In this document: positions 1 to 59,720 of the stretch, piece after piece
Numbering within the stretch: position 1 is the stretch's first letter
Layout of the letters: the number at the start of each line of letters is the position of its first letter
The notes under the pieces: generated by a model
The model's input: the letters and a program-made list of their open reading frames with translations, nothing else
Databases searched by the model: none
Told to the model about the DNA's origin: nothing
Virus record (IMG/VR): IMGVR_UViG_3300032287_002700
Location: 1 to 59,720 of that record
Length of the DNA: 59,720 nt
DNA from: a virus
Reading direction: 5' to 3' (one strand)
Program-made: the position numbers and the translations under genes

Positions 1-21
1 GCTTGCTACAGTCGGCGAAAC
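1..21. repeat. 21-bp terminal direct repeat, left copy
   Basis: Positions 1-21 are identical to 59700-59720. Joining them keeps the desaturase frame open, so they most likely reflect an assembly overlap of a circular or circularly permuted genome and not a biological end. Confidence 0.9.
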
Positions 22-172: not shown

Positions 173-670
173 ATGGCGTCGCTTACTGATTTGATTTTTG
201 ATATACCAAATTGGCGAGACAAGACGTCTAGCGAAATCGTAGAAATTCTCAATGCTGCGAATATTGATTTCGCAGAGTCTGAGAGGTTCACCGGCTATGG
301 GCTCGCGCTCATCATCGGTACGGATCGGGTTCAACCTTTCCTCGATCGATGCCGCATGATGGGCCTTGCTTGGGTCGCCGAGTCGCAGGTGCTAGGCTTG
401 CCGATTGGAGATCCGATTTTCAATGCAAGCTTACTTCAAACTGAGGACGTTGACGCGGTACAAATCGCTCGATACGGTCGGCGAAAGATTTCCGCGTTAC
501 AGGCCAACAAGTTGACGGTGACGACGGATCAAATCGTTGCGGCGTTCAATCTTTGCAAGCTCAAAACGTTGCAGCTTGAGAAGCGACAAGCGGCGCGTGA
601 CCGGTACAATGCCTACTGTACCGCGATCGATCAATGGGACGGCAATCCCGCTACGGAGCCACAGTTGTGA
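173..670 (+). CDS. Conserved-looking phage protein in the tail/fibre block
   Basis: 165 residues, unrecognised. The ATG at 173 follows GAGG at 163 and lies just after the desaturase stop; a longer TTG-initiated version from 110 would overlap the desaturase and is less likely. The protein looks soluble and mainly helical at the C-terminus, with a basic, glutamine-rich stretch near residues 130-150. Its stop overlaps the GTG start of the next fibre-like gene (GTGA), so the two are probably translationally coupled. No function is assigned beyond its place between head and tail genes. Confidence 0.7.
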   Translation: MASLTDLIFDIPNWRDKTSSEIVEILNAANIDFAESERFTGYGLALIIGTDRVQPFLDRCRMMGLAWVAESQVLGLPIGDPIFNASLLQTEDVDAVQIARYGRRKISALQANKLTVTTDQIVAAFNLCKLKTLQLEKRQAARDRYNAYCTAIDQWDGNPATEPQL

Positions 671-1332
671 CGATAAGTATTGTCGGAAGTACCTCACAGC
701 TGGCGAGTAGCATTACCACGATGCCTACACATGCAGCGGGGCATCTGCTTTTATGCCTTGCCTACAACGACGGTTCGTCCACAGCGGTAACATTGCCTAG
801 CGGATGGGTTGAGCGTTACGGCATCGCGGTCGGCGGCGTGGGTTACATCAGAGTTGGATACAGGTACGCTCAATCATCCTCGGAGACCTCGGGCACTTGG
901 ACCAATGCCGATCAGTTGTTTATGTTGTCGATTTCATCCGGTGCTAATACGCTGGTGTTCCCAAACTTTATATCATCGAACACCGGCACAGCAACGACGA
1001 TCAACTTTGCCGCTCAAACCGCGGCAACATTTCAGACCGGTGCAGACGATCAAGCGTTGATCAGCTGGGTTGTTAGCCGAAACTCAACTAACACGCTGAC
1101 TGCTCCCTCAGGGTTGACGGCGCAACAATCGGCAACGGACTCGGCAAACTACGTTTCACAGGTTTGCTTCCAGGCTTCACGTACAACGATTTGGGCGTCA
1201 ACGAATATCACGGTAGCAACCTCGGCACTGTATCGTTCATTGATGTTATCATTGGTTGAGTCACCTGTTTATGGTGCCAGTGGTGGAGGCGGATTGATTT
1301 TACCGGGTGGTTTCAACGGAGGTTTCAACTGA
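667..1332 (+). CDS. Putative virion surface/fibre protein
   Basis: 221 residues rich in Ser, Thr, Ala, Gly and Val, with alternating beta-type segments and a glycine-rich tail (GGGGLILPGGFNGGF). This composition is usual for phage head-fibre or tail-surface proteins that fold as beta-sandwiches. I start it at GTG 667, which overlaps the upstream stop; the upstream in-frame extension would be nested in the previous gene. Its stop overlaps the ATG of the large repeat protein downstream. Family not recognised; a structural role is inferred from composition and position. Confidence 0.65.
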   Translation: MTISIVGSTSQLASSITTMPTHAAGHLLLCLAYNDGSSTAVTLPSGWVERYGIAVGGVGYIRVGYRYAQSSSETSGTWTNADQLFMLSISSGANTLVFPNFISSNTGTATTINFAAQTAATFQTGADDQALISWVVSRNSTNTLTAPSGLTAQQSATDSANYVSQVCFQASRTTIWASTNITVATSALYRSLMLSLVESPVYGASGGGGLILPGGFNGGFN

Positions 1333-2825: not shown

Positions 2826-3268
2826 TGGCGATAGTGACAACGTTCTGCGATTTCTTCGGATGCTCAGGCGGTGGTACTCCAGGTCAGGGCACCGTCCCGA
2901 ACTTGCTATCAGTCGATTACCAAGGGGATTGGCAATTCCTTGAGGGGATCGAAAGCGTCACGTTTGCGTTCGGGCCACAGCGTTACACGTCACAAACTGT
3001 GAGTGGAAACGTTTCCAAGGCGAAGCGGTCAGCGTTAACTGAGAGGGATATTGCAATCGCTGCAAGTACCTTCGGTTGGGAGCCCGAAGATATGACTTTG
3101 GTTGTATGGGCGGAAACCATCGTTGATACGACCGGGGTAATCATCGAACCGAAAATCGGTGATAAATTCACCGCGTTTGATACCGACTGGATTATCAAGT
3201 CGATCAAGCGAACGGTAGACTTATCTGAGTGGCGTTGCTACGTGCGAAAGACGACGAAGGAAGAATGA
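2825..3268 (+). CDS. Putative neck / head-tail joining protein
   Basis: 147 residues. The true start is ATG 2825, which overlaps the upstream stop (TAATG). Order and size (between fibre genes and a tail-completion protein) fit a head-tail connector or stopper, but I recognise no diagnostic motif. Residues 60-64 are SGNVS, encoded by an exact family A palindrome (core 3005-3016). Its end overlaps the next gene by four bases (ATGA). Confidence 0.55.
   Translation: MAIVTTFCDFFGCSGGGTPGQGTVPNLLSVDYQGDWQFLEGIESVTFAFGPQRYTSQTVSGNVSKAKRSALTERDIAIAASTFGWEPEDMTLVVWAETIVDTTGVIIEPKIGDKFTAFDTDWIIKSIKRTVDLSEWRCYVRKTTKEE
3003..3018. repeat. Family A palindrome, in CDS
   Basis: Core GGAAACGTTTCC at 3005-3016, coding SGNVSK in the gene at 2825. 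Confidence 0.9.
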
Positions 3269-3720
3269 CAGATACACTGGCAGTAGACTTCGTTGATTAT
3301 ATGCGGGACTGGGCCACAAGCCTGGAAACGATGGATCACGAACCTACCTTTCAATCCATGCTCGATCCTCTGCATGAGGGCTTCACCGCAAACTTTGACA
3401 ACGCGAGGGCACCGTACGGGCAATGGCCTCCGCACGCACCGTATACGATCCTCTTGCATGGCCCGCACCCTCTGTTGATTCTTACCGGCGCGATGAAGCG
3501 AAGCGTTACGCAGACCGGATCAGACGGACGGATCGAAGAGTTTACACGGGATCAAGCAATAATCGGAACATCACTTTTTTACGCACCGTATCAACAGTTT
3601 GGAACTGCCAAGATACCTGCCCGGCCTTTCCTTTGGCTCGAAGGTTCTTACGTTGATCGGCTGCACGAACTTTTTGCTGACGCTACGATGGCGAGGGCTC
3701 TAAATGCATCATCAGGATAA
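3265..3720 (+). CDS. Tail completion / virion morphogenesis protein (Mu gpG-like)
   Basis: 151 residues. The pattern LILTGAMKRSV, then YAPYQQFGTAKIPARPFLWL, is the hallmark of the phage virion morphogenesis (tail completion, gpS/Mu gpG) family, which caps the tail and joins it to the head. The length matches the family. Start ATG 3265 overlaps the upstream stop. Confidence 0.8.
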   Translation: MTDTLAVDFVDYMRDWATSLETMDHEPTFQSMLDPLHEGFTANFDNARAPYGQWPPHAPYTILLHGPHPLLILTGAMKRSVTQTGSDGRIEEFTRDQAIIGTSLFYAPYQQFGTAKIPARPFLWLEGSYVDRLHELFADATMARALNASSG

Positions 3721-8694: not shown

Positions 8695-9419
8695 TTCTAC
8701 AAGTCGGATCGATCAGAAGGCCCAACAACGAAGCGGTTGTCGTTCCGTCGTACTCGCCGGTCTACGATTACACGCGACGCATTGAGGCGATGAAAATCCG
8801 TTGGGAGATCACCGGGCGCGTGGTGAACTTCCCAGTTGCAACGCAAGCGATCACCTCGTCAGAGATAGCAGCGTTAGAAGCGGCATTTCGATCGAAAGAC
8901 CCGATTTGCAGATTGCTTGGTGACCAGGGCGAAGCAACTCCCTACGTGCTCGATCCAGGGCAATTGATGCAGGGCCCGTACTTGATCGATTACACGTTTC
9001 CAACATCGGACGCGGAAGTATACGCAACCGGCCTAGCGTATCGCGTATCGCTCGAAGGGGTGCAATATGTGGGGCAGGGCGGCTTGGACTTGATCGACTT
9101 CACCGAAGAGGTCACAGAGGATCAAGGCGGGCTTACTTATGTTTACGTCGGCGGTGCGGTGAACCTTGCGGAACGGCAAGTTGCATTCCAGAAGAAAAGC
9201 TACAAGTACACGCAATCGGGATCGTGTACGGGCTTGCTGGCGTACCCGAAAATCCCTCCTCCGATTTGGCCCTTCGCGTTGCTTCAAGCACCGAAAATTG
9301 TAAAGAGCGACGCACAATTCAAGGGCAAGGTAGATACTCATTACCGGGTGAACTGGGAGTATCAATACGAATGGCCTGTTAAACTTTTCGGCGATCCACA
9401 TAGGAATAATCAGGGGTAA
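8691..9419 (+). CDS. Distal-tail-like minor tail protein
   Basis: 242 residues, beta-rich with many Tyr, directly downstream of the tape measure, where siphoviruses encode the distal tail protein that starts the tail tip. No diagnostic motif seen; the assignment rests on order and size. ATG 8691 overlaps the tape measure stop. Confidence 0.55.
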   Translation: MILQVGSIRRPNNEAVVVPSYSPVYDYTRRIEAMKIRWEITGRVVNFPVATQAITSSEIAALEAAFRSKDPICRLLGDQGEATPYVLDPGQLMQGPYLIDYTFPTSDAEVYATGLAYRVSLEGVQYVGQGGLDLIDFTEEVTEDQGGLTYVYVGGAVNLAERQVAFQKKSYKYTQSGSCTGLLAYPKIPPPIWPFALLQAPKIVKSDAQFKGKVDTHYRVNWEYQYEWPVKLFGDPHRNNQG

Positions 9420-9422
9420 GCG

Positions 9423-10673
9423 ATGGCAACAAAATATTGGATCGGACGCGCGGCAAGCGTTGCACAAATTACGAAGGTTGTTTTTTCTTCGATCGTATCG
9501 ACGAACACCTACTCGGTGACGATCAACGGGAAGACCGTTAGCGCGGTCGCGGCGTCAACTTCTCTCGGTGACTTGATCGATGCACTGGTCAATGCATGGA
9601 ACAGTTCCGCAGAACCAGAGCACCGGGAAATGGTCGCAGCTCGACGCGAAGACCCTACGTTATCGGGCTTGCAGCTTACTGCGATCAATGCCGGTGTGCC
9701 TTGCACCGTCACAGCCTCGGCAACGACCGGTACGGCAACGGTGACGCAACCAACAGCGGCAAGCGGCCCGAACTTCTGGAACGTTGCTGGCAACTGGCAG
9801 GGCGGATCATTACCAAGTGCGGCGGACGATATCATCGTTCGTGACTCCGACGTATCGATTCTCTACGGACTGGCCGACACGAACAACTACGCAAGCCTTA
9901 CGATCGACGCAACGTTTACCGGGCAGGTGGGCTTGCCTGATCGGAACGCTTCGGGCTATCCAGAGTATCGAACAACCTTGCTGACTCTTGGAACTGGATC
10001 GGCGATTGCCATCAACCTCGGGTATGGCGTTGGTGCCTTTACTTCACGTTGTCGGATCGATGTTCAGGCGTCGAACGTCACCTACACTCTAAGCGGCTCA
10101 GGAACCAACTCAACGCAGGCTTATGCGTTCGAGCTACGCAATCCGGGCAGCGGCTCTACGGTGCGAGTTTACGCGGGTTCTCTTGCAATTTCGTCCTCAT
10201 CGAGTGGAAACGTTTCCACCCTGGATATCATCAAAGGGACTACCCAAGGTGTTTCAGCCTCATCGAATGTCGCGGTCAACGTTCAATCAACGATCACCGT
10301 CGGAACGATCGAAGTCTACGGGGCGAACTTGCTACTTGAGGGGCCGACGACTACCCTGATTGCTCGTGAACAAGCTCGCGTCACAGTGGCAAAGGCGGCA
10401 ACAGCGGCAACGGTCAAGGTATCTTCTCAGGCGTTGGTAAGCTGGGATTCCTCAGGCGGGATCACCACGAAACTACACGTTGAGCAACAAGGTACGATTG
10501 ACTTTGGGCGAGTCGGAACCAGCAAGACAATCGCGGCCTGTGATATCTTCGCAAGCGGTACGCTCCTTGATCCTTTGGACAATTGCACCTTCACCGCAGG
10601 CGTTGTGTTGCAGGCTTGCCGCATTGCTGACGTTTCACTCGATTTAGGCGTAGGGATAACGATCAATGGCTAA
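9423..10673 (+). CDS. Putative tail-tip structural protein with beta-helix features
   Basis: 416 residues. It starts YWIGRAAS, has a small domain with a Val-Thr repeat style (TNTYSVTINGKTVSA), then NFWNVAGNWQGGSLPSAADD, the usual preface to a beta-helix or beta-solenoid found in virion proteins, followed by long Ser/Thr/Val-rich repeats. Residues 261-265 are SGNVS, encoded by an exact family A palindrome (core 10206-10217). A head or tail adhesin is likely; which is unknown. Confidence 0.6.
   Translation: MATKYWIGRAASVAQITKVVFSSIVSTNTYSVTINGKTVSAVAASTSLGDLIDALVNAWNSSAEPEHREMVAARREDPTLSGLQLTAINAGVPCTVTASATTGTATVTQPTAASGPNFWNVAGNWQGGSLPSAADDIIVRDSDVSILYGLADTNNYASLTIDATFTGQVGLPDRNASGYPEYRTTLLTLGTGSAIAINLGYGVGAFTSRCRIDVQASNVTYTLSGSGTNSTQAYAFELRNPGSGSTVRVYAGSLAISSSSSGNVSTLDIIKGTTQGVSASSNVAVNVQSTITVGTIEVYGANLLLEGPTTTLIAREQARVTVAKAATAATVKVSSQALVSWDSSGGITTKLHVEQQGTIDFGRVGTSKTIAACDIFASGTLLDPLDNCTFTAGVVLQACRIADVSLDLGVGITING
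10204..10219. repeat. Family A palindrome, in CDS
   Basis: Full 16-bp GTGGAAACGTTTCCAC, coding SGNVST in the gene at 9423. Confidence 0.9.
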
Positions 10674-16213: not shown

Positions 16214-16777
16214 ATGCCGAGTCCATCAAGTCCGAGACGTAGACCGACGCGCGGTGACGATCCGGTAACTCCACCAGAGCCAAGCAAGCCGAAGAAACCG
16301 CGAAGACGTCGCAAGCCTCAAGCGGTATCTACAGGCTTTGAAGTCGATTGGTACTGGGTCGCGATTGCCGTTCTATCGCTCTTTACGATCCTTCCCTACG
16401 TCGCGCCGTTTTTCAAGGACGGAAACACGAAACACAATGAAATCGTTGATAACTTCGATTCCTTGAGTGGAAACGTTTCCACTTGGTTCGAGACTGTAGC
16501 CTCCGACGATCCGAAGCAAGACGTTCCAAAATACGTCGAAGCATTGAGGGCAACGGCTAGCGCAGAAATTAGCAACGTTGCAAATATTGATGAGAAACTC
16601 AAAACTGAAGTTGAGTCCCGATTGGGGCGCGTTGGGTGGCTAAATTGGGGCTTGTTCAACGTCGAGCTACTCAAAGAGGTTCGAAGGCTTCGCGATGCCG
16701 GCAAGCTTTCGACCGTCAAACAACATCAAGCATTCTTGAACGCGGTCGCAGACTCACTGCAAAAGGTAGGTGCATAA
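16214..16777 (+). CDS. Membrane-anchored protein carrying A and B sites
   Basis: 187 residues from ATG 16214 (GGGGG SD). Order: Pro/Arg/Lys-rich cytoplasmic tail (residues 1-42), a membrane segment (VAIAVLSLFTILPYVAPFF), then a soluble C-terminal part. SGNVST (family A core 16469-16480) and SNVANI (family B core 16572-16581) are both encoded in the linker. A degraded B copy (16174-16200) lies before the gene. A spanin-like or envelope role is possible from context; family unknown. Confidence 0.55.
   Translation: MPSPSSPRRRPTRGDDPVTPPEPSKPKKPRRRRKPQAVSTGFEVDWYWVAIAVLSLFTILPYVAPFFKDGNTKHNEIVDNFDSLSGNVSTWFETVASDDPKQDVPKYVEALRATASAEISNVANIDEKLKTEVESRLGRVGWLNWGLFNVELLKEVRRLRDAGKLSTVKQHQAFLNAVADSLQKVGA
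16467..16482. repeat. Family A palindrome, in CDS
   Basis: Full 16-bp copy, coding SGNVST in the gene at 16214. Confidence 0.9.
16563..16590. repeat. Family B site, in CDS
   Basis: Core GCAACGTTGC 16572-16581 with left arm CAGAAATTA; codes SNVANI. Confidence 0.75.
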
Positions 16778-17766
16778 TGCCAATTTGGGATCGGTATTTA
16801 GATGGTTCGCTCGACGCGGCAAGGCACGATAGAGCGCACCAGAAACTATTCGCGGCTCAGTCAATCGCTCCAGTCTATGGGGCAGCGGCTCCGAACGTTA
16901 TGGATCGAGAACCGGCGAAGGATATCTTCCTAGGTCGGTATGCCCTGATGGGGATGCAATCGCTTTACGGCAGTAAGTTCAAATGGTTCCCGCAGTACCA
17001 GGAGGAAGGTACTTGCGTTGGGCAATCGCACGCGGCAATCGCAACGATCGTGCTAGGCGTAAGCTCGTTACTTTCCGGCTTGCGTTTTCCTGGTCGCGTT
17101 GCGGTCGCTCCCATTTATGCCGGGTCGCGCGTCGATATCGGCAAGAATCCCGGAACGTGGCAAGGCTCAACTGGATCATGGGCGGCTCAGTGGCTGACCA
17201 AGTACGGCTGCGTGACGTACCGCGAGCTAGGTCACAACGACAATCCAGAAACTGAGAAGGATTGGCTTGCTACCATGCGCGCCGATGAACAGCAGGGAAT
17301 GAAGTGGACGAACTCCCGCGAGGGCGTACCAAAGACTTCTGAGGACGTCGCAAGGCTTCGACCGATCCAGCAAGCTCCCCTCGTCCAAACTGTCGAAGAG
17401 GTACGCGCGGCTATCACGAACCTAACTCCGATCAACCTTTGCGGCATGGTGCACCCTTCGAAGCAGCTTGACTCACAGGGAACATCAAAGCAACTGACGC
17501 GCGGCGGCGGTCATTCAACGGCGATCATCGGTCAGTATTTTGATGGCTCGCGTTGGTGGTACGATCACTTACAAAGCTGGTGGTACTACTACCAGGGCGG
17601 CTACGCGCGAACTGGAAACAAACTCGACGCGCAGTTCAAGGGAAGCGTGACGCGGATACCCGAAGAATGGCTTCGTCAATGGCTTGCAGAACGCGATTCC
17701 TACGCGATGGTAGGCGTGCAAGGCTTGGAACCCATTGACGCGGAATACTCGCGTCTGATGGCCTGA
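16777..17766 (+). CDS. Papain-like cysteine peptidase, endolysin candidate
   Basis: 329 residues. QEEGTCVGQSHA (Cys about 77) and GGGHSTAIIGQYFDG (His about 250), followed by WWYDHLQSWW, fit the Cys-His-Asn arrangement of papain-like peptidases (C1-like). It directly follows the membrane proteins of the probable lysis block, so it may cleave peptide cross-links of the host wall; but a virion peptidase or other role is possible. Start ATG 16777 overlaps the upstream stop (TAATG). Confidence 0.65.
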   Translation: MPIWDRYLDGSLDAARHDRAHQKLFAAQSIAPVYGAAAPNVMDREPAKDIFLGRYALMGMQSLYGSKFKWFPQYQEEGTCVGQSHAAIATIVLGVSSLLSGLRFPGRVAVAPIYAGSRVDIGKNPGTWQGSTGSWAAQWLTKYGCVTYRELGHNDNPETEKDWLATMRADEQQGMKWTNSREGVPKTSEDVARLRPIQQAPLVQTVEEVRAAITNLTPINLCGMVHPSKQLDSQGTSKQLTRGGGHSTAIIGQYFDGSRWWYDHLQSWWYYYQGGYARTGNKLDAQFKGSVTRIPEEWLRQWLAERDSYAMVGVQGLEPIDAEYSRLMA

Positions 17767-28908: not shown

Positions 28909-28978
28909 TACGTTTTGTGAGTAGCCAAGTGCGATGGCTTGGGTGAAAAACCTGGATCAGTGACCAGGAGGCACAAAT

Positions 28979-29060
28979 GGGCCGGTAGCTTAAATCCTAG
29001 GTGAGAGTCTTGGTCCCTACGGGGGATCATGGGGTGCAGGTTCGAGTCCTGCCCGGCCCG
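28979..29060 (+). tRNA. tRNA-like element 1, possible tRNA-Arg(ACG)
   Basis: Acceptor GGGCCGG/CCGGCCC (7 bp), T arm GCAGG-TTCGAGT-CCTGC with a canonical loop, anticodon stem GGTCC/GGATC with loop CTACGGG, giving anticodon ACG. The D stem GCTT/GAGT needs two wobble pairs and there are two extra bases before the anticodon stem and a seven-base variable region, so the fold is imperfect (82 bases). No encoded CCA. A different reading of the fold is possible. Confidence 0.5.
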
Positions 29061-29115
29061 TTGGATGATGACGAAAACGGTTTCGTGATGATGGCAAGCT
29101 AATTGGAGGTGGATA

Positions 29116-39605: not shown

Positions 39606-40121
39606 ATGACGAAGCGCGCCGGAAAAAAGAAGTCACCGGTGCAAGGCAAGAACACGACAGGCAATAAGCCGGGGTCACAGAGCCGAGCACTGAAAGCGAC
39701 AGGCGAACCCCAGAAAGAATCATTCTTCTGGCCTGAGTTAACCAATGCCAATGAAGCGACTGCGATCAAGGCAGGACGCGGGGATCAGGTCAAACGACTC
39801 AAAGACCTACGCTTAGAGCTGCGAGCCGTGAACGAACGCTGGCCCGTGCCGCAAGAGCTACGGGAACGGATGGTGTTCGAATCTGCAAGAATCGCGATGA
39901 GTCCCGATTCAGGCCCGAAGGAAAAGCTATGGGCCACAAGACTTCTGCTAGCGATGGACGCTGCGAACAACAAGCCAAGAGACTTACCAACGCAGATAGC
40001 AGGATCGGCGAATATCACAGTCAATCAAGTGCTTGCCTTGATCGAAGGGCCGGGCAGGGATGAAGAGCTTGACCTAAGAGAGTTCAAGGTGATACCAGGG
40101 GGTGAGGATGACTACGCTTAA
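39606..40121 (+). CDS. Terminase small subunit candidate
   Basis: 171 residues, a Lys/Ser/Gly-rich N-terminal tail (residues 1-40) then helical segments (RLKDLRLELRAVNERWPVPQELRERMVFESARIAM...EKLWATRLLLAM). Its position directly before the large subunit, overlapping it by 14 bases, and its helical DNA-binding style suggest TerS. Not recognised by motif. Confidence 0.6.
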   Translation: MTKRAGKKKSPVQGKNTTGNKPGSQSRALKATGEPQKESFFWPELTNANEATAIKAGRGDQVKRLKDLRLELRAVNERWPVPQELRERMVFESARIAMSPDSGPKEKLWATRLLLAMDAANNKPRDLPTQIAGSANITVNQVLALIEGPGRDEELDLREFKVIPGGEDDYA

Positions 40122-42576
40122 CGTGCCGGCGTGGGTCAGTCCTAAAGAGGCTCAGCGAGCAGTTGATGACGCGCGGGCGATGCGTAGTCCCTTGCTGATG
40201 GCGGAGCGATTCTCAAACGGAGAATGGAAACGTGCTCGGCATCTAGCGGTAATTGACTTCGAGTTTCGGAACTTGCTAAGTGATCCGAACCTAGATTGCT
40301 TGATAGTCAAATGTCCAGTTCGCCATGGAAAACTTCTCGCCGACGAAACGCCTATATGGACGCCTGACGGATGGAAAACCCATGGCGAGCTAGCCGTAGG
40401 GTCAAGGGTGTTCGCAGCGGATGGGACGATTTCCACTGTGATAGGGATATCGGCAAAGCAGGAAGCAGATTGTGAAGTGGTCTTCTCCGATGGTGAAGTC
40501 ATCAAGTGTCACGAAGCGCATGAGTGGATGGTATGGGATCGAAAGAAGCGGCGATGGAGAATCATTGAGACGAAAGAGCTTTTCGAAGGTGTTTTTCATA
40601 GCCATGAAAAGGGAGTCCCGCGGGCTAGATACTCCATTCCGTTCGGTGAGGTTTGCGATGGGCATAGCGATCCGTTGCCAGTCGATCCCTATTGGCTTGG
40701 AGTTTGGCTTGGTGACGGCAGGTCGAGTGCTTGGGACTTCTGCGGATGCAAAGAGGATTCAGAATACATTCTCGGCTTACTCGAATCCCGCGGCATGGTT
40801 CGATCATGGTCAACAGTTCACAAAACAACCGGCGTTCACTACTTCGGATTCAGTGGGCTACCCAAGCTAAAATCACTGGGCCTCAAGAACAATAAGCACA
40901 TACCGGACGAGTATCTAACCGCGAATCAGTCAGTGAGGCTCGACGTTCTCCGCGGCTTGGTTGATACGGATGGTCACGTTGAGGATGACGGAAGGGTTCG
41001 CATTGTTACCGCTTCCAAGCAGCTTGCCGACGATATTGAAACGCTAGTTCGTTCGTTCGGGTGGAGAGCGTCAACAACGTTCCAAGAACCGGCGATGAGT
41101 AGTTCCGGGATCCAGGGTCGAAAGAGAGTCTATACCGTTCAGTTCATGCCGCGGGGATTGATCGTCGCAAACCTTCCAAGGAAACAAAAGGGACGCAAGG
41201 CGAATCTATACAAGAACGGAAAGTCACTGACGATTCGTGAAGTTCGCCGGGTCGCTCCAAGTCCAGGCCATTGCATCGAGATCGATCACCCTTCGCACTT
41301 GTACCTATGCGGGAAAACCAACAAGCCGACGCATAACAGCCAGTACTTAGCACGATGGGCACCGGCTTGGTACATGCTAAGAAACCCCTACAAGCGAGTG
41401 ATGATTTGCACCAATACGGCAACGCTTGCTAGCAGTCACTCAAGGTGGGTACGTGACAAGGTACACGAGCTTTCACCGATGATGGGGCTCGATGGCGTTG
41501 ATCCGAAGCACTCAGCGGTGCGTAACTGGCAGTTAGAGAAGACCAAGGGTGAATGCCTAGCGGCTGGGGTTGGATCATCGATCGTGGGATTCGGTGCGAA
41601 CTTACTAATCATCGACGACTACCTCAAGGATGCGAAGTCGGCTTACTCGCAGAAGGTTCGGGACGATCAGTGGGATTGGTTTGTTTCCACTTCCGGCACG
41701 CGACTCGAGCCGGGCGGGAAAGTGGTTCTGCTTTGTACCCAATGGAACGCTGACGACTTGATAGGCCGTATCGAATCACGCAAGGAGGAACTGGATATCC
41801 GGGTGCGATCAGTAACGCTGCAAGCCTTGAGGGAAGGTACCGAAGTCAAAGACCCGTTGAACAGGCAAGAGGGTGAAGCATTGTGGCCGGAGCGCTGGCC
41901 TGCGGAAGTAATGGAGAGACGCAAGCGGCAAGCGGGGCACTGGTGGCACTCCATCTACCAGGGGAATCCCAAGGGCTCGTCGATGGCGAACTTCCCCGAT
42001 TCCTACTTTGCGAACATCTGGGCCGACGATGATGAGTTCCCAGAGCCGAAGGACTGCTTAATCTCGGCTGCATTCCTCGATCCGTCGAAGGGCAAGAACG
42101 CTCGCAAGGGTGACTACCAAGCACAAATATGGGTCGGATTCCGCAACGGGCTTTTCTACGTCGATTCGGACATTGACCGCAAGCCGGTATCAAAGATGGT
42201 CAGAGACTACGTGACGTTCAACCGAGAACGGCGTACGGCCTTCGTAGGACTTGAGGCGAACGCATGGCAAGACTTGCTAGCCGACGATTACTGGGAAGTC
42301 TGCAACGAGATCGGATACAACGCCGATAGGCCTATCCTCGTTGAACAGCGAGTCAACAAGCATGTTCGAATCGAACGCCTCGGGAAGTGGTTCGATAAGA
42401 GGTTGCTACGCTTCCGCAAGTCGGCGAGCAATGAGCTACTGATTCGGCAAGCGAAGGCGTTCCCATACGGCGATCATGACGACGGGCCGGACGCATTGGA
42501 AGCAGCAATCGCGTTGCTATGCCGGTCAGTGGATGTTTTGCATGGCTTACATGAGGTAGAGGAAACGGAAATATGA
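40108..42576 (+). CDS. terL: Terminase large subunit precursor with intein
   Basis: 822 residues from ATG 40108; removal of a 335-residue intein leaves 487. Extein: CPVRHGK joined to SQYLARWAPAWYML rebuilds the Walker A motif, LLIIDDYLKDA is Walker B, and AAFLDPSKGKNARKGDYQAQIWVG starts the RNase H-like nuclease. It translocates DNA into heads. The intein interrupts the Walker A lysine-serine junction, so unspliced protein should be inactive. It overlaps the small subunit upstream and the next gene by four bases. Confidence 0.85.
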   Translation: MTTLNVPAWVSPKEAQRAVDDARAMRSPLLMAERFSNGEWKRARHLAVIDFEFRNLLSDPNLDCLIVKCPVRHGKLLADETPIWTPDGWKTHGELAVGSRVFAADGTISTVIGISAKQEADCEVVFSDGEVIKCHEAHEWMVWDRKKRRWRIIETKELFEGVFHSHEKGVPRARYSIPFGEVCDGHSDPLPVDPYWLGVWLGDGRSSAWDFCGCKEDSEYILGLLESRGMVRSWSTVHKTTGVHYFGFSGLPKLKSLGLKNNKHIPDEYLTANQSVRLDVLRGLVDTDGHVEDDGRVRIVTASKQLADDIETLVRSFGWRASTTFQEPAMSSSGIQGRKRVYTVQFMPRGLIVANLPRKQKGRKANLYKNGKSLTIREVRRVAPSPGHCIEIDHPSHLYLCGKTNKPTHNSQYLARWAPAWYMLRNPYKRVMICTNTATLASSHSRWVRDKVHELSPMMGLDGVDPKHSAVRNWQLEKTKGECLAAGVGSSIVGFGANLLIIDDYLKDAKSAYSQKVRDDQWDWFVSTSGTRLEPGGKVVLLCTQWNADDLIGRIESRKEELDIRVRSVTLQALREGTEVKDPLNRQEGEALWPERWPAEVMERRKRQAGHWWHSIYQGNPKGSSMANFPDSYFANIWADDDEFPEPKDCLISAAFLDPSKGKNARKGDYQAQIWVGFRNGLFYVDSDIDRKPVSKMVRDYVTFNRERRTAFVGLEANAWQDLLADDYWEVCNEIGYNADRPILVEQRVNKHVRIERLGKWFDKRLLRFRKSASNELLIRQAKAFPYGDHDDGPDALEAAIALLCRSVDVLHGLHEVEETEI
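40333..41337 (+). other. Intein with LAGLIDADG endonuclease domain (class 3 type)
   Basis: 335 residues (precursor residues 76-410). Block A is LLADETPIWTPDGWKTHGELAVG, so the first residue is Leu, not Cys or Ser; block B contains KCHEAHEWMVW; the end is GHCIEIDHPSHLYLCGKTN then KPTHN before Ser+1. The Trp (HEW), Cys (GHC) and Thr (THN) match the WCT triplet of class 3 inteins. LGVWLGDG and LRGLVDTDG are the two dodecapeptides of a LAGLIDADG homing endonuclease, which may still be active. Confidence 0.85.
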
Positions 42577-51559: not shown

Positions 51560-51600
51560 AGTGAGCAGGGTTGACCTAGAATTTGAGGCGGAGGCATACC

Positions 51601-53784
51601 ATGGAAAAAATAATCGACGCAATGCGAGACGCCCAAAGTTTAACTGAATCCTGGGGCGAGGTCATCGACGTTACCGAGTTCATGACGGATTCTACCGGGT
51701 TCTTCAATACGAATGGACTCGGAGCATTTACGCAGATTTACGACCGGTCAGACGGTCGCTTTCGTCCAGTCTATACCAATGAGTCCGACCTGAAGCTGAT
51801 CCGGGCTATGAGTTGGCTACTTGTGGAGAAGGTGCCCATGGCTCAAGCGTGGGTCAATCGCCTGTTGGATTACACGATCGGCACCGGATTCGATTGGACG
51901 ATCAAGAGCGAGAACAAGCGACTTGAAAAGGCGGTTCAGATTTACGTCCGCGAATGCCTTGATAACTCGAAGTGGTCATCGGAGCTCGAACGTGAATCCT
52001 ATGTCCGAGAAATCGCCGACGGTGAGTTCCTATCTGAGTTCATCTACGACGACGGTCAGTGCATGATGGTCGCGCGGGAGCCTGACGAACTGACTGAACC
52101 AGCGATCAAGCCTGAGCTAGAGGATTGGCTAGGGATTGATTACGTGCCTTCCTGGACGTTCGGAGTACTTACGAAAAAGAACGTACCAGAGAGGCACATC
52201 GGGTACCATTTCGTGCGTGACGCGGCGGGGCTAGATTGGGACTACGTACCGGCTGACCGCGTTGTATTTTGGAAGCGAAACGTACGCCAAAGGGCGAAGC
52301 GGGGCTTCTCAGATTTTTTCAAGCCGCATTTGTACCTTCTCAGGGCTGACCGCGTTTTGACCAATACCGCAGAGGGGGCAGCAACTCAGGCGGCAATCGC
52401 CTACATCGTCGAGCACAGCGAAGGGACGCAGCGTCAAGCGGATAACATCGTCAAGAAATTCGCACCGCTAACCGGCAAGGTTGACCCTATGACTGGGCTA
52501 CCGCAACGCAGGCGGAGAATGATGCCGGGCACGCGGCTTGATGTTCCGGCTGGTCAGTCCTACAAGGCGGGCTTACTCGGCGCGAATAACTCAGATATCT
52601 ACGTCGATGTTCTCGAGGCGGCGTTGAGGCTTGCGGGATCGGTTCACGCATTCCCCGAAGGGATGCTGACCGGAAGCTACGAGAACAATAACCTTGCCTC
52701 AGCACTGGTCGCAGAGGGGCCGTTTATGCAGGGTCGGCAGGCGGAGCAAGTGCAACGCAAGGAACGCTTCCGCGAGGTCATTGTGAAGCTTATTAAGCTT
52801 GGTGCGAACCTTGGGCGTTTCCGCGCGTACGGGATCAACTCGTGGGATGACTTGCGAGATATCTTGACCGTTGAAACCATCGCGGCAAGAATCCTACAGC
52901 TTGACCCATTGAAGCATACCCAAGCCCTAGCCTTACAACGTGAGAGAGGCTGGGTATCAGACAAGACCGCAATCAACGAATTGGGCCGGGATATCGATAC
53001 CGAAACGGCGAACGGTTTGCAGGTTGCAGGGGCAGAGCAACAAGCCGGAACAGCGACTCAACCGGGCTCGAAAAGTGGAAACGTTTCCAGCGCAGAGGGT
53101 CAGAAAACGGGGCCAGAAAGTGGAAACGTTTCCACCTCAGAAGCAGAGAATTCTGCAAAATGGCAGGGAATTTCGCGTTTGCAGTGGAATCGCAATCGCA
53201 AGGCGATGGCCGACGTCTTGCGTGACTACATGCAAGGGAACACTACCCGGCAAGTGGCCGAAGTTCTGCTTCGATCAATCGGCATGCCTGACCAGGATAT
53301 CAAGGCAGTTTTGGACGATGCGTCGGATGGGAGCCTGGAAACGTTTCCAGCGGAACAGCTAACTGAGGCTGAGAAAAAGACCCTCAACAAGCCTTTCCGA
53401 ACACCGAGTGGCCCGAAGAAATTCGGCGTGTATGTCAAGGACGATAAGGGCAACGTGGTGAAGGTCAGCTTCGGCGATCCGAAGATGCGAATCAAGCGTG
53501 ATGACCCTGGAAGCAGACGCGTGTTCAGGGCTCGGCATAACTGCGACGATCCGGGGCCGAAGTGGAAGGCTCGGTACTGGTCATGCCGTTTCTGGTCGCG
53601 CCCAAGTGTCACCAAGTTGCTCAAGGAATCATTGCAGGGGCTCGATACTTGGGACGGCGTGACCTTCGTTCGTGAGTCCTGGTTGCTCAAGCAGAACCCA
53701 GCATTGGCTGAACTGAACCGCAAGCAGGAATCATTTTCAGGGCGTCAACAACAGATGCTCGACCGTTGGAAGGATTACCCATAA
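51601..53784 (+). CDS. Portal protein with extra C-terminal domain
   Basis: 727 residues from ATG 51601 (GGAGG SD). Residues about 1-480 have a portal layout (WVNRLLDYTIGTGFDW; DVPAGQSYKAGLLGANNSDIYVDVLEAALRLAGSVHAFPEGML). The C-terminus (about 595-727: PSGPKKFGVYVKDDKGN, MRIKRDDPGSRRVFRARHNCDDPGPKWKARYWSCRFW) is a domain I know as a separate small phage protein. The linker (about 485-585) codes three A palindromes (cores 53077, 53122, 53337) as SGNVSS, SGNVST and LETFPA. DNA enters and leaves through the portal ring. Confidence 0.8.
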   Translation: MEKIIDAMRDAQSLTESWGEVIDVTEFMTDSTGFFNTNGLGAFTQIYDRSDGRFRPVYTNESDLKLIRAMSWLLVEKVPMAQAWVNRLLDYTIGTGFDWTIKSENKRLEKAVQIYVRECLDNSKWSSELERESYVREIADGEFLSEFIYDDGQCMMVAREPDELTEPAIKPELEDWLGIDYVPSWTFGVLTKKNVPERHIGYHFVRDAAGLDWDYVPADRVVFWKRNVRQRAKRGFSDFFKPHLYLLRADRVLTNTAEGAATQAAIAYIVEHSEGTQRQADNIVKKFAPLTGKVDPMTGLPQRRRRMMPGTRLDVPAGQSYKAGLLGANNSDIYVDVLEAALRLAGSVHAFPEGMLTGSYENNNLASALVAEGPFMQGRQAEQVQRKERFREVIVKLIKLGANLGRFRAYGINSWDDLRDILTVETIAARILQLDPLKHTQALALQRERGWVSDKTAINELGRDIDTETANGLQVAGAEQQAGTATQPGSKSGNVSSAEGQKTGPESGNVSTSEAENSAKWQGISRLQWNRNRKAMADVLRDYMQGNTTRQVAEVLLRSIGMPDQDIKAVLDDASDGSLETFPAEQLTEAEKKTLNKPFRTPSGPKKFGVYVKDDKGNVVKVSFGDPKMRIKRDDPGSRRVFRARHNCDDPGPKWKARYWSCRFWSRPSVTKLLKESLQGLDTWDGVTFVRESWLLKQNPALAELNRKQESFSGRQQQMLDRWKDYP
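53076..53089. repeat. Family A palindrome, in CDS
   Basis: Core 53077-53088, coding SGNVSS in the portal linker. Confidence 0.9.
53120..53135. repeat. Family A palindrome, in CDS
   Basis: Full 16-bp copy, coding SGNVST, 45 bases after the previous copy in the portal linker. Confidence 0.9.
53336..53349. repeat. Family A palindrome, in CDS
   Basis: Core 53337-53348, coding LETFPA near the end of the portal linker. Confidence 0.9.
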
Positions 53785-56441: not shown

Positions 56442-57599
56442 ATGCGATTAGACGCAAAGACCCGTCGTCACCAGGAACTGCGACGGTTGTACGAGGCGGC
56501 AGCACGCGATCGGCAGTTCGATCGATTCATGACTGACTTCCAAGAGTCGCTCAAGGGTGACGCGAATGACCTAGCTTCACGCTGGTCAGTTCGTCAACTC
56601 TTTGAGCAATTCGTACCCGATGGACGCGAAGCTGCAAACCTGCTTCGTCCTTTGTCCGGCGGTGGATATCAGATTCAAGAATCGGCTGAGTTGGTCGATA
56701 CGTCGATGTTTGCCAACATCATCGGGCAGATCATGTACACCCAAACCCTCAACGGCTTCAATCAGCCTGGGTTGGTCGGTGAACAACTGGTCGAAGTGAT
56801 CCAGACTCAGTTCAGCGGCGAGCGAATCCCCGGCGTTGGTCGCTTGGGCGATGACCTCGACGTGGTGAACGAAGGTCAGGAATACCCGAACGCAGTGCTC
56901 GGTGAAGAGTACGTTGACACCCCGGAAACGATCAAGCGTGGTTTGATTCTCAACGTGACTCGTGAGGCGATTTACTTCGACCGAACGGGAGTGCTGTTGA
57001 GCGAATGTAACCGCGTTGGTGAGCGCGTCGGCGTTAACCGCGAAAAGCGAATCCTTGACGTCGTAACCGGTATCTCGACCGTGTACCGACGCAACGGACA
57101 AGCGGCCACAGCAACCTACGCTTCAGACAACCAGTTGAGCAACACGCTTGCCGACTGGACTTCGATCGATGTTGCGGCTCAGAAATTTAACGGCATGGTT
57201 GACCCTGTGACCGGCGAACCGATTTCCGTTTCGATCGATACCATCTTGGTGCCGAAGGCGTTGGAAGTCCTAGCGAATCGAATCATCAACGCTTCGATGA
57301 CTCGCCAGGGAAGCAACACCGGCAACAACCAAACGTACGTCAACGGCAACAGCGTTCAGGGTGCTCCCCGCGTTGTTTCCGGTCAGTACGTCAAGCAACG
57401 TACCAGCTCCGATGCGACGTGGTTTGCAGGTGCTCCGCGTGAAGCGTTCGTCTACATGCAAAACTGGCCTTTGACCGTCACCCAAAGTGACGAGAACAGC
57501 GAAGTCGGCTTCACTCGCGATATCGTTGTTCGATTCAAGGCTTCCGAGCGTGGAGCGGCTGCGGTTCGCGAGCGGCTCAAGATGACGAAGAATACCTAA
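56442..57599 (+). CDS. Major capsid protein (HK97-like)
   Basis: 385 residues. N-terminal helix, then long beta/alpha layout with LLRPLSGGGYQIQESAE, ERIPGVGRLGDDLDVVNEGQEYP, and a conserved tail-end block (NWPLTVTQSDENSEVGFTRDIVVRFKASERGAAAVRE). It forms the capsid shell. No long cleaved delta domain is visible, in keeping with a separate scaffold. A strong terminator follows it. Confidence 0.8.
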   Translation: MRLDAKTRRHQELRRLYEAAARDRQFDRFMTDFQESLKGDANDLASRWSVRQLFEQFVPDGREAANLLRPLSGGGYQIQESAELVDTSMFANIIGQIMYTQTLNGFNQPGLVGEQLVEVIQTQFSGERIPGVGRLGDDLDVVNEGQEYPNAVLGEEYVDTPETIKRGLILNVTREAIYFDRTGVLLSECNRVGERVGVNREKRILDVVTGISTVYRRNGQAATATYASDNQLSNTLADWTSIDVAAQKFNGMVDPVTGEPISVSIDTILVPKALEVLANRIINASMTRQGSNTGNNQTYVNGNSVQGAPRVVSGQYVKQRTSSDATWFAGAPREAFVYMQNWPLTVTQSDENSEVGFTRDIVVRFKASERGAAAVRERLKMTKNT

Positions 57600-58901: not shown

Positions 58902-59342
58902 ATGCGATCACCTTCCCTTGGTTCGTTGCTATTGTCGTTGATTTTCGGCGTGGTCATTGGCGTTTTGGGCTATGAACTCGTAGCCAAAAGTGGAAACGTT
59001 TCCACCGAAGAGACTCAGCCGAAGCAGTCATCCTCAGACCTCATCGATCAGATCAAAGCTGACTATGAGGCGATGCTGGCCGAGCGAAAAGCGAAGCAAT
59101 TCAGCAAGGCGGAAGCAACAAAGGAAATCGTTATTTGCACCCTTCCTAATTGCCCTCCGTGTAAGCAGTGGATCGATCAGGAGTGGAAACGTTTCCACGA
59201 TGCGGGATGGGACGTCGTTATTTGCGACAAGCCGAACCATGGCTATACCAGAGGGCCTACCTTCGAACTCACAAGCGGTGGCAAGCGGGTTGTCATCGTC
59301 GGCTATCTTTCCCTCGACAGCGCAGAGGCGGCAATCAAATGA
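58902..59342 (+). CDS. Membrane-anchored thioredoxin-like protein (CPPC)
   Basis: 146 residues from ATG 58902. An N-terminal membrane segment (SLGSLLLSLIFGVVIGVLGYEL) then a linker and a thioredoxin/glutaredoxin-type domain: IVICTLPNCPPCKQWIDQEW with a CPPC redox pair, then VVICDKPN and GGKRVVIVGYLS. It would face outside the cytoplasm and could handle disulphides, possibly of the Cys-rich virion proteins. Two family A palindromes are coded: SGNVST (58992) and EWKRFH (59185). Overlaps the desaturase gene (ATGA). Confidence 0.65.
   Translation: MRSPSLGSLLLSLIFGVVIGVLGYELVAKSGNVSTEETQPKQSSSDLIDQIKADYEAMLAERKAKQFSKAEATKEIVICTLPNCPPCKQWIDQEWKRFHDAGWDVVICDKPNHGYTRGPTFELTSGGKRVVIVGYLSLDSAEAAIK
58990..59005. 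repeat. Family A palindrome, in CDS
   Basis: Full 16-bp copy, coding SGNVST after the membrane segment of the CPPC protein. Confidence 0.9.
59183..59198. repeat. Family A palindrome, in CDS
   Basis: Full 16-bp copy read in the third frame, coding EWKRFH; 193 bases from the previous copy. Confidence 0.9.
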
Positions 59343-59720
59343 CCGATTGGATCGGTTGGATATTACTTAGTTGGCTCGCGGCGGATTTCATCGCCGGAGC
59401 GTTCCATTGGTTTGAGGATCGGTACTGGGATGCCGACACACCCTTTGTAGGCGCGCTCATAGGCGGGCCCAACAAAGAGCACCATGCGAACCCCTTGGGC
59501 CTGTTGGCTGGGAGCTACTGGCACCGCAACTACACGACGATCATTCCTTCGATGACGGCCTGTGTTACTTGCCTGTTTGTACCGGCATGGCGTGACGCAT
59601 GGCTAGCCTTCGCGTTCCTCAGTCAAGCGAACGAGGTACACGCATGGGCTCATTCGAAGGGCAAGGTAAACGGGCTTATTGAGGCATTGCAGGAAACCGG
59701 CTTGCTACAGTCGGCGAAAC
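59339..59720 (+). CDS. CarF/PEDS1-like (TMEM189) lipid desaturase, 5' part
   Basis: This holds codons 1-127 of a 174-residue protein whose remainder is at positions 22-164 once the sequence is circularised. The protein matches the lipid desaturase (Kua/TMEM189/CarF) family, whose known members introduce the vinyl-ether bond of plasmalogens in membranes. Visible family landmarks are an N-terminal hydrophobic segment ending in HW (H23), EHHANP (H48, H49), H62, the VHAWAH block (H101, H105) and, across the join, HHGKHH (H128-H133). These histidines fit a di-metal centre. Its ATG overlaps the stop of the upstream CPPC protein (ATGA). It is shorter than the roughly 270-residue animal and myxobacterial proteins. 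Family assignment is confident; the substrate is unknown. Confidence 0.85.
   Translation, partial: MTDWIGWILLSWLAADFIAGAFHWFEDRYWDADTPFVGALIGGPNKEHHANPLGLLAGSYWHRNYTTIIPSMTACVTCLFVPAWRDAWLAFAFLSQANEVHAWAHSKGKVNGLIEALQETGLLQSAK
59700..59720. repeat. 21-bp terminal direct repeat, right copy
   Basis: Identical to positions 1-21. One copy should be dropped when the sequence is circularised, which gives a unique length of 59,699 bases. Confidence 0.9.

Follow-up and report, generated by a model that had tools for sequence, protein, structure and literature searches.

A lipid-desaturase-family gene of probable Planctomycetota phages, outside the plasmalogen desaturase branch and adjoining a thioredoxin-like gene

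Introduction

What would a phage do with a lipid desaturase, and which lipid would such an enzyme act on? The question is raised by a gene cut in two by the ends of a viral sequence of 59,720 nucleotides, IMG/VR virus record IMGVR_UViG_3300032287_002700, which was analysed as a whole and is called the window below. A sequence-only reading had joined the two parts across the circle join and proposed a phage-encoded plasmanylethanolamine desaturase of the CarF/TMEM189 type, a kind of enzyme for which it knew of no described phage member. In agreement with the latter, the literature searched did not describe the PF10520 superfamily in tailed phages, nor any PF10520 phage protein. As two or more chemistries occur in the family (delta-1' desaturation in plasmalogen formation, delta-3 in FAD4), membership of PF10520 leaves the product unfixed. 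Here, we ask whether the gene is real, to which branch of the family it belongs, and what its neighbours and host suggest about its function.

Results

The gene is real and intact across the join

Bases 1-21 of the window are identical to bases 59700-59720 (GCTTGCTACAGTCGGCGAAAC), the sole terminal overlap found when the ends were compared. This overlap is probably one left by the assembler on a circular map and not a physical terminal repeat. Joining 59339-59720 with 22-164 gives a single open frame of 174 residues followed by a stop codon, as the sequence-only reading had described. The features at the join are:

59339..59720, + strand: desaturase-like gene, 5' part, residues 1-127, ATG at 59339 (PF10520 profile 1-125; joined open frame; uninterrupted copy in contig L003)
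22..164, + strand: desaturase-like gene, 3' part, residues 128-174 and stop, across the circle join (PF10520 profile 121-164; joined open frame)
59700..59720, no strand: 21-bp end overlap, inside the desaturase gene, identical to 1-21
1..21, no strand: second copy of the 21-bp end overlap (end comparison)

The viral IMG/VR contig L003 (59,960 bp) carries an uninterrupted copy of the gene, 98.9% identical and with the same neighbours as in the window, so the join is not an artefact. Synonymous changes greatly outnumber replacements when the window is compared with L003 (dN/dS 0.02) and with L004 (0.05), and the whole range of 0.02-0.07 indicates a real gene under purifying selection. Chance or an assembly artefact is ruled out by these two observations.

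A Pfam search with the joined protein matched PF10520 (Lipid_desat) at 125.5 bits (E 3.1e-36, profile 1-164 of 175), well above the curated cut-off of 26.4 bits. This was the only family reported, with no match to PF00487 (FA_desaturase), and the proposed membership of the lipid-desaturase family is supported. Each half of the gene exceeds the cut-off unaided (65.6 and 50.4 bits). The earlier expectation that annotation of a linear contig would be blind to the gene needs correcting: although the gene is cut in two, Pfam recognises each half, and two fragments would result.

Other searches returned little. No PHROGs family was found for the protein. A PDB sequence search gave no match with the single protein and only chance-level matches with a profile. 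In the annotated phage collection, the only matches were to Erythrobacter phage vB_EliS-L02 (38%), whose member is annotated 'hypothetical protein', and to LR756511 (30%). An AF2 model built with 31 sequences (pLDDT 92, pTM 0.87) has long helices at residues 2-29, 60-80 and 82-94. Its top PDB fold match, the di-metal fatty-acid hydroxylase Scs7p, is weak (E 1.8), while its top viral fold match in Foldseek is the 'Lipid desaturase domain' protein A0A3G5A308 of Harvfovirus (E 2e-6, probability 1.00); the viral fold library also gives A0A6B9UTM0 (E 6e-4).

The metal ligands are kept but two residues of plasmalogen desaturases are replaced

Across phage and cellular relatives, exactly eight histidines are invariant (H23, H48, H49, H101, H105, H129, H132 and H133), and D27 is also invariant across distant relatives, so the CarF/TMEM189 histidine pattern is indeed intact. 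Comparison with CarF, TMEM189 and FAD4 was made through published residue numbers and through planctomycete proteins that carry the phenylalanine and histidine discussed below (F/H-type). Mouse PEDS1 residues H96, D100, F118, H121 and H131 are numbered in PMC8960569. The distance from H96 to H121, 25 residues, equals that from H23 to H48 in the window protein, which places D100 at D27, F118 at N45 and H131 at G58. The aspartate four residues past the first histidine, D100, is the only further essential residue of PEDS1 (PMC8960569) and is present in the window protein as H23/D27.

The other two positions differ. FAD4 and PEDS1 are stated to have F118 in common, and mutation of this residue to alanine leaves 6% activity (PMC8960569); in the window protein, this site is Asn45. 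A ninth histidine is found in the metazoan, myxobacterial and Leptospira enzymes and not in the plant or alphaproteobacterial ones, and plant and alphaproteobacterial homologues without it did not complement carF (PMC9131029). The corresponding site (mouse H131, CarF H113) is Gly58 in the window protein, and the nearby H62 varies among relatives. The eight histidines, D27 and N45 are invariant in 31 sequences, viral and cellular, of what we call the N-type.

The window protein belongs to a separate branch

For the residue survey, about 150 homologues were extracted and more from Pirellulaceae were added later. The sequence 'RPFREHHVDPREITRHDFIETN', in which the two diagnostic sites are F and H, is found in planctomycete proteins such as L124 and L127-L130. 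The window protein, its viral relatives, the Hyphomonadaceae proteins L040-L046 and the Verrucomicrobiota members carry N at the first site, and their second site is usually G or some other residue than histidine. In these trees, planctomycete F/H-type proteins stood in for Myxococcus xanthus CarF, and plant FAD4 was not among the sequences. The split between N-type and F/H-type has a support of 100/99 in a first, maximum-likelihood tree, and in a second tree, with the Pirellulaceae prophage members included, the F/H-type forms a 100/98 group, consistent with the split and with the residue table. In both trees, the window protein falls outside the F/H-type group, on the N-type side. Members of the N-type occur on about 65 viral contigs, and these viral members are almost all undescribed before.

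Against the NCBIfam CarF equivalog NF045946, the window protein scores 68.3 bits for a cut-off of 500, which is strict, so that this miss alone is weak evidence. Taken with the residues at the two sites and the N-type branch, however, it leads us to keep the family membership and to drop the label 'plasmanylethanolamine desaturase' proposed earlier. Judged by its sequence, the window protein is a PF10520 superfamily member of an N-type branch distinct from the plasmalogen desaturases.

Some observations were made on the wider family. About a tenth of the sampled Planctomycetota genomes encode PF10520 proteins (L124-L141, L160-L167), the best-scoring of which mostly have the animal/CarF-like F/H motif, and the ninth-histidine site is Cys or Arg in some Pirellulaceae members. 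In the uncultured 595-kb phage LR756511.1 (L037), positions 2986-3444 encode an unannotated PF10520 protein in which the eight histidines, the aspartate, an F118-like phenylalanine and the ninth histidine are all present. By its residues, this phage protein qualifies better than the window protein as a candidate true plasmalogen desaturase.

The gene lies among structural genes of a probable Pirellulaceae phage

The gene is embedded in the structural region, as the sequence-only reading had noticed, with the capsid gene upstream and tail-like genes downstream. The main landmarks are:

40102..42576, + strand: terminase large subunit (phrog_38, E 3e-72)
51583..53784, + strand: portal protein (phrog_21, E 2.7e-25)
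56442..57599, + strand: major capsid protein (PF25209, E 1.6e-18; phrog_133; relatives in Pirellulaceae)
58902..59342, + strand: membrane-anchored thioredoxin-like protein, 146 residues (N-terminal hydrophobic helix, NCPPC, PTF cis-Pro-like motif; AF2/Foldseek)
634..1332, + strand: minor-tail-like protein, downstream of the desaturase (phrog_13352 minor tail protein, E 7e-8)

Relatives of the window capsid protein, 39-49% identical, were found in about 15 of 241 Pirellulaceae genomes, in none of 105 Hyphomonadaceae genomes, and with no match among 50,697 phage records. Four of the Pirellulaceae capsid regions keep the order of the window (portal, two further head genes, capsid, downstream genes). 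The desaturase and the thioredoxin-like gene were not found in these four syntenic regions, which makes the pair look like accessory cargo. Among non-viral desaturases, the nearest (51-55% identity) lie in head/packaging modules of Pirellulaceae prophages. Their neighbours there are terminase, portal, prohead protease, capsid or head-tail joining genes, and this location rules these desaturases out as host metabolic genes. Since the capsid protein matches syntenic prophages in Pirellulaceae and the nearest non-viral desaturases lie in prophages there, the host is probably a member of the Pirellulaceae (Planctomycetota). The Hyphomonadaceae, where the first cellular matches were found, are ruled out as host by the capsid protein, absent from the 105 genomes and present in Pirellulaceae; comparisons of the terminase and the sliding clamp were uninformative on the host.

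An exported trypsin-like protease with a C-terminal transmembrane segment is encoded directly upstream of the N-type desaturase in Pirellulaceae prophages (L183, L184, L185, L186, L187, L188). One 8.4-Mb genome has two copies of such protease-desaturase prophages, and so does one 6.5-Mb genome. A papain-like protease is encoded near the desaturase in L011 (1700-2515; Peptidase_C1, 22.2 bits for a cut-off of 20.7), with homologues in L031 (6391-7254) and L091 (12698-13579). A separate family, in L076 (4303-5229), L079 and L082, has a weak relative at 16636-17766 of the window (E 7e-10). Elsewhere in the window, residues 570-680 of the portal protein (51583-53784) form a C-terminal domain about 50% identical to hypothetical or HVA1-family proteins of Roseobacter, Pelagibacter and Flavobacterium phages, and a phage-encoded tRNA-Ser (anticodon AGA) lies at 28978-29061.

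A thioredoxin-like gene adjoins the desaturase

The TGA stop of the thioredoxin-like gene overlaps the ATG of the desaturase (ATGA). Pfam Thioredoxin_2 matches only some relatives of its product, and below the cut-off (best 23.5 bits for 27), while an AF2 model of the C-terminal domain matches thioredoxins with a Foldseek probability of 1.00, and the CxxC active site is conserved in the family as CPPC, CEPC or CGPC. The gene adjoins the desaturase in 40 of the 44 clade contigs with enough flank, a count that includes many near-copies and only about five independent lineages; it is missing from three to four of the 44. Counted among the 40 is L011, where the desaturase is flanked on its opposite side by a divergent thioredoxin-like copy (CGPC, profile E 9e-5). 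In the more distantly related phages L074 and L078, unrelated-looking Thioredoxin_2-like proteins of 307-309 residues, with a signal-like start and a C-terminal transmembrane segment, are encoded upstream. An adjacency census found no gene of this thioredoxin-like family beside the Hyphomonadaceae desaturases.

Positive-inside counts give an N flank with more K/R in about 10 of 17 cases and the reverse in none. By these charge counts, the thioredoxin domain would weakly be placed outside and the histidine-rich domain inside, a topology that argues against direct electron transfer between the two proteins.

Discussion

What has been established here for a desaturase-like gene in a phage is its family, the residues of its active site, the selection on it, its branch, and its adjacency and synteny. 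From these we infer an enzymatic activity, its substrate and electron path, its timing and its benefit to the phage. The reading of the whole that we consider likely is that of an N-type PF10520 di-iron enzyme, carried as thioredoxin-coupled late cargo by Pirellulaceae phages and prophages, which would alter host membrane lipids. The protein would be a small integral-membrane enzyme in which the eight histidines and one aspartate very probably hold a di-iron centre. With O2, this predicted centre may introduce a double bond, or a hydroxyl group, into a lipid tail near its glycerol or head-group end. The gene would be accessory cargo of the late region in phages and prophages of Planctomycetota (Pirellulaceae), and its expression, to judge from gene position, would be late. 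Translational coupling would link it to the membrane-anchored thioredoxin-like protein, which may either aid the redox cycle of the enzyme or act on thiols in the same envelope. For the former, a thiol-redox companion has a precedent in plant FAD4, which is more active with the thiol peroxidase PRXQ (PMC12456178). The probable outcome is that host membrane lipids are altered late in infection, and as a residue common to all known plasmalogen makers is missing, the effect on lipids is probably other than plasmalogen formation.

Could the enzyme still be a genuine plasmanylethanolamine desaturase that converts alkyl-ether lipids of the host to vinyl-ether lipids (plasmalogens)? It shares the superfamily, and the eight essential histidines and the aspartate are all there. 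Homologues of ether-lipid genes are reported for some Planctomycetota (PMC11868695), and PEDS-like F/H-type members do occur in this phylum. The loss of the ninth histidine is no absolute proof against such a role, as the mouse H131A variant keeps about 7% activity (PMC8960569). However, both the ninth histidine and F118 are replaced, carF was not complemented by homologues lacking the former (PMC9131029), and the protein scores far under the CarF equivalog cut-off and falls on a separate branch in both trees, so that we regard plasmalogen formation as very unlikely. An FAD4-like desaturase, which would desaturate an acyl chain (e.g. in phosphatidylglycerol) close to its carboxyl end, with the thioredoxin-like neighbour as the counterpart of PRXQ, seems to us possible but doubtful: both enzymes lack the ninth histidine (PMC9131029), and a conserved thiol-redox neighbour beside the phage gene recalls the enhancement of FAD4 by PRXQ (PMC12456178), yet the phenylalanine said to be common to FAD4 and PEDS1 (PMC8960569) is Asn here, and the topology counts weakly favour opposite sides for the thioredoxin domain and the enzyme.

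Loss of F118, conserved from animals to plants, could imply changed or weakened catalysis. Together with the top, though weak, PDB match to the hydroxylase Scs7p, it would fit a membrane hydroxylase or a protein that has lost catalysis and merely binds membrane or iron; we think this quite unlikely, for the metal ligands are all invariant and purifying selection is strong. In L080, an amidase/endolysin gene (9396-9989; phrog_822, E 5e-55) overlaps the start of the desaturase gene, the exported proteases lie upstream in the Pirellulaceae prophages, and short transmembrane and coiled-coil proteins, weakly spanin- or hemolysin-like, adjoin the desaturase in several contigs:

L015 7795-8001; L030; L011 3513-3800; L031 8737-9036; L074 10510-10719; L076 6308-6610: short transmembrane and coiled-coil proteins

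As part of a lysis or envelope-breaching module, the desaturase would act alongside endolysin, holin/spanin-like and membrane-anchored protease or thioredoxin genes by changing or softening the membrane. The L080 amidase is the sole strong match, however: the spanin and holin matches do no better than E 0.07, and the hemolysin-like match has 7e-5. We recognised no lysis gene next to the copy in the window, and the prophage copies lie among head genes. Such a module is therefore unlikely, although the protease, head-gene and endolysin contexts suggest an envelope-directed role, with lysis as a lead. A tentative extension of the reading of an N-type di-iron enzyme is that it forms a previously undescribed planctomycete-phage system, in which the enzyme, acting on or forming lipids other than plasmalogens and FAD4 lipids, might remodel the host envelope with its own membrane-anchored thioredoxin, late in infection or at lysis.

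How does the window protein compare with known systems? With CarF/TMEM189/PEDS1, it shares the superfamily, the eight essential histidines, the H-x3-D arrangement and the type of membrane topology; it differs in G58 for the ninth histidine, N45 for F118, its branch and its being phage-borne, and is about 55 residues shorter than CarF at the N-terminus (NF045946 positions 60-223 matched). Plant FAD4, a phosphatidylglycerol delta-3-trans desaturase, likewise belongs to the superfamily, has no ninth histidine and is linked to a thiol-redox protein, but by its published residues differs at the F118 position, and its PRXQ is a peroxiredoxin whereas the phage partner is thioredoxin-like and membrane-anchored. 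The alphaproteobacterial PF10520 proteins, about 36-42% identical to the phage protein, also lack the ninth histidine, and the Hyphomonadaceae ones share N45-type residues on the N-type side, but have no such thioredoxin-like gene beside them. A Bradyrhizobium homologue that was tested failed to complement carF (PMC9131029). The Harvfovirus protein A0A3G5A308 has the viral PF10520 fold in common, but is from a giant eukaryotic virus and only 26% identical.

Lipid desaturation by a phage has, in general terms, a known precedent in the cyanophages, as in both cases a phage carries a membrane lipid desaturase as an auxiliary gene. Lipid desaturases encoded by cyanophages were reportedly described by Roitman et al. 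in 2018 in ISME J; we take them to be of a different family (acyl-lipid/FA_desaturase type), with cyanobacterial hosts. They are cited in passages of PMC8228385 and PMC11480375.

The PF10520 superfamily includes the human plasmalogen enzyme, and in phages of Planctomycetota it occurs widely, under strong selection and together with a redox protein. Planctomycetota have unusual membranes, and few of their phages have been studied. The N-type phage members offer a small set of proteins for asking what N-type enzymes make, and would also let one ask whether thiol-redox proteins generally serve PF10520 enzymes.
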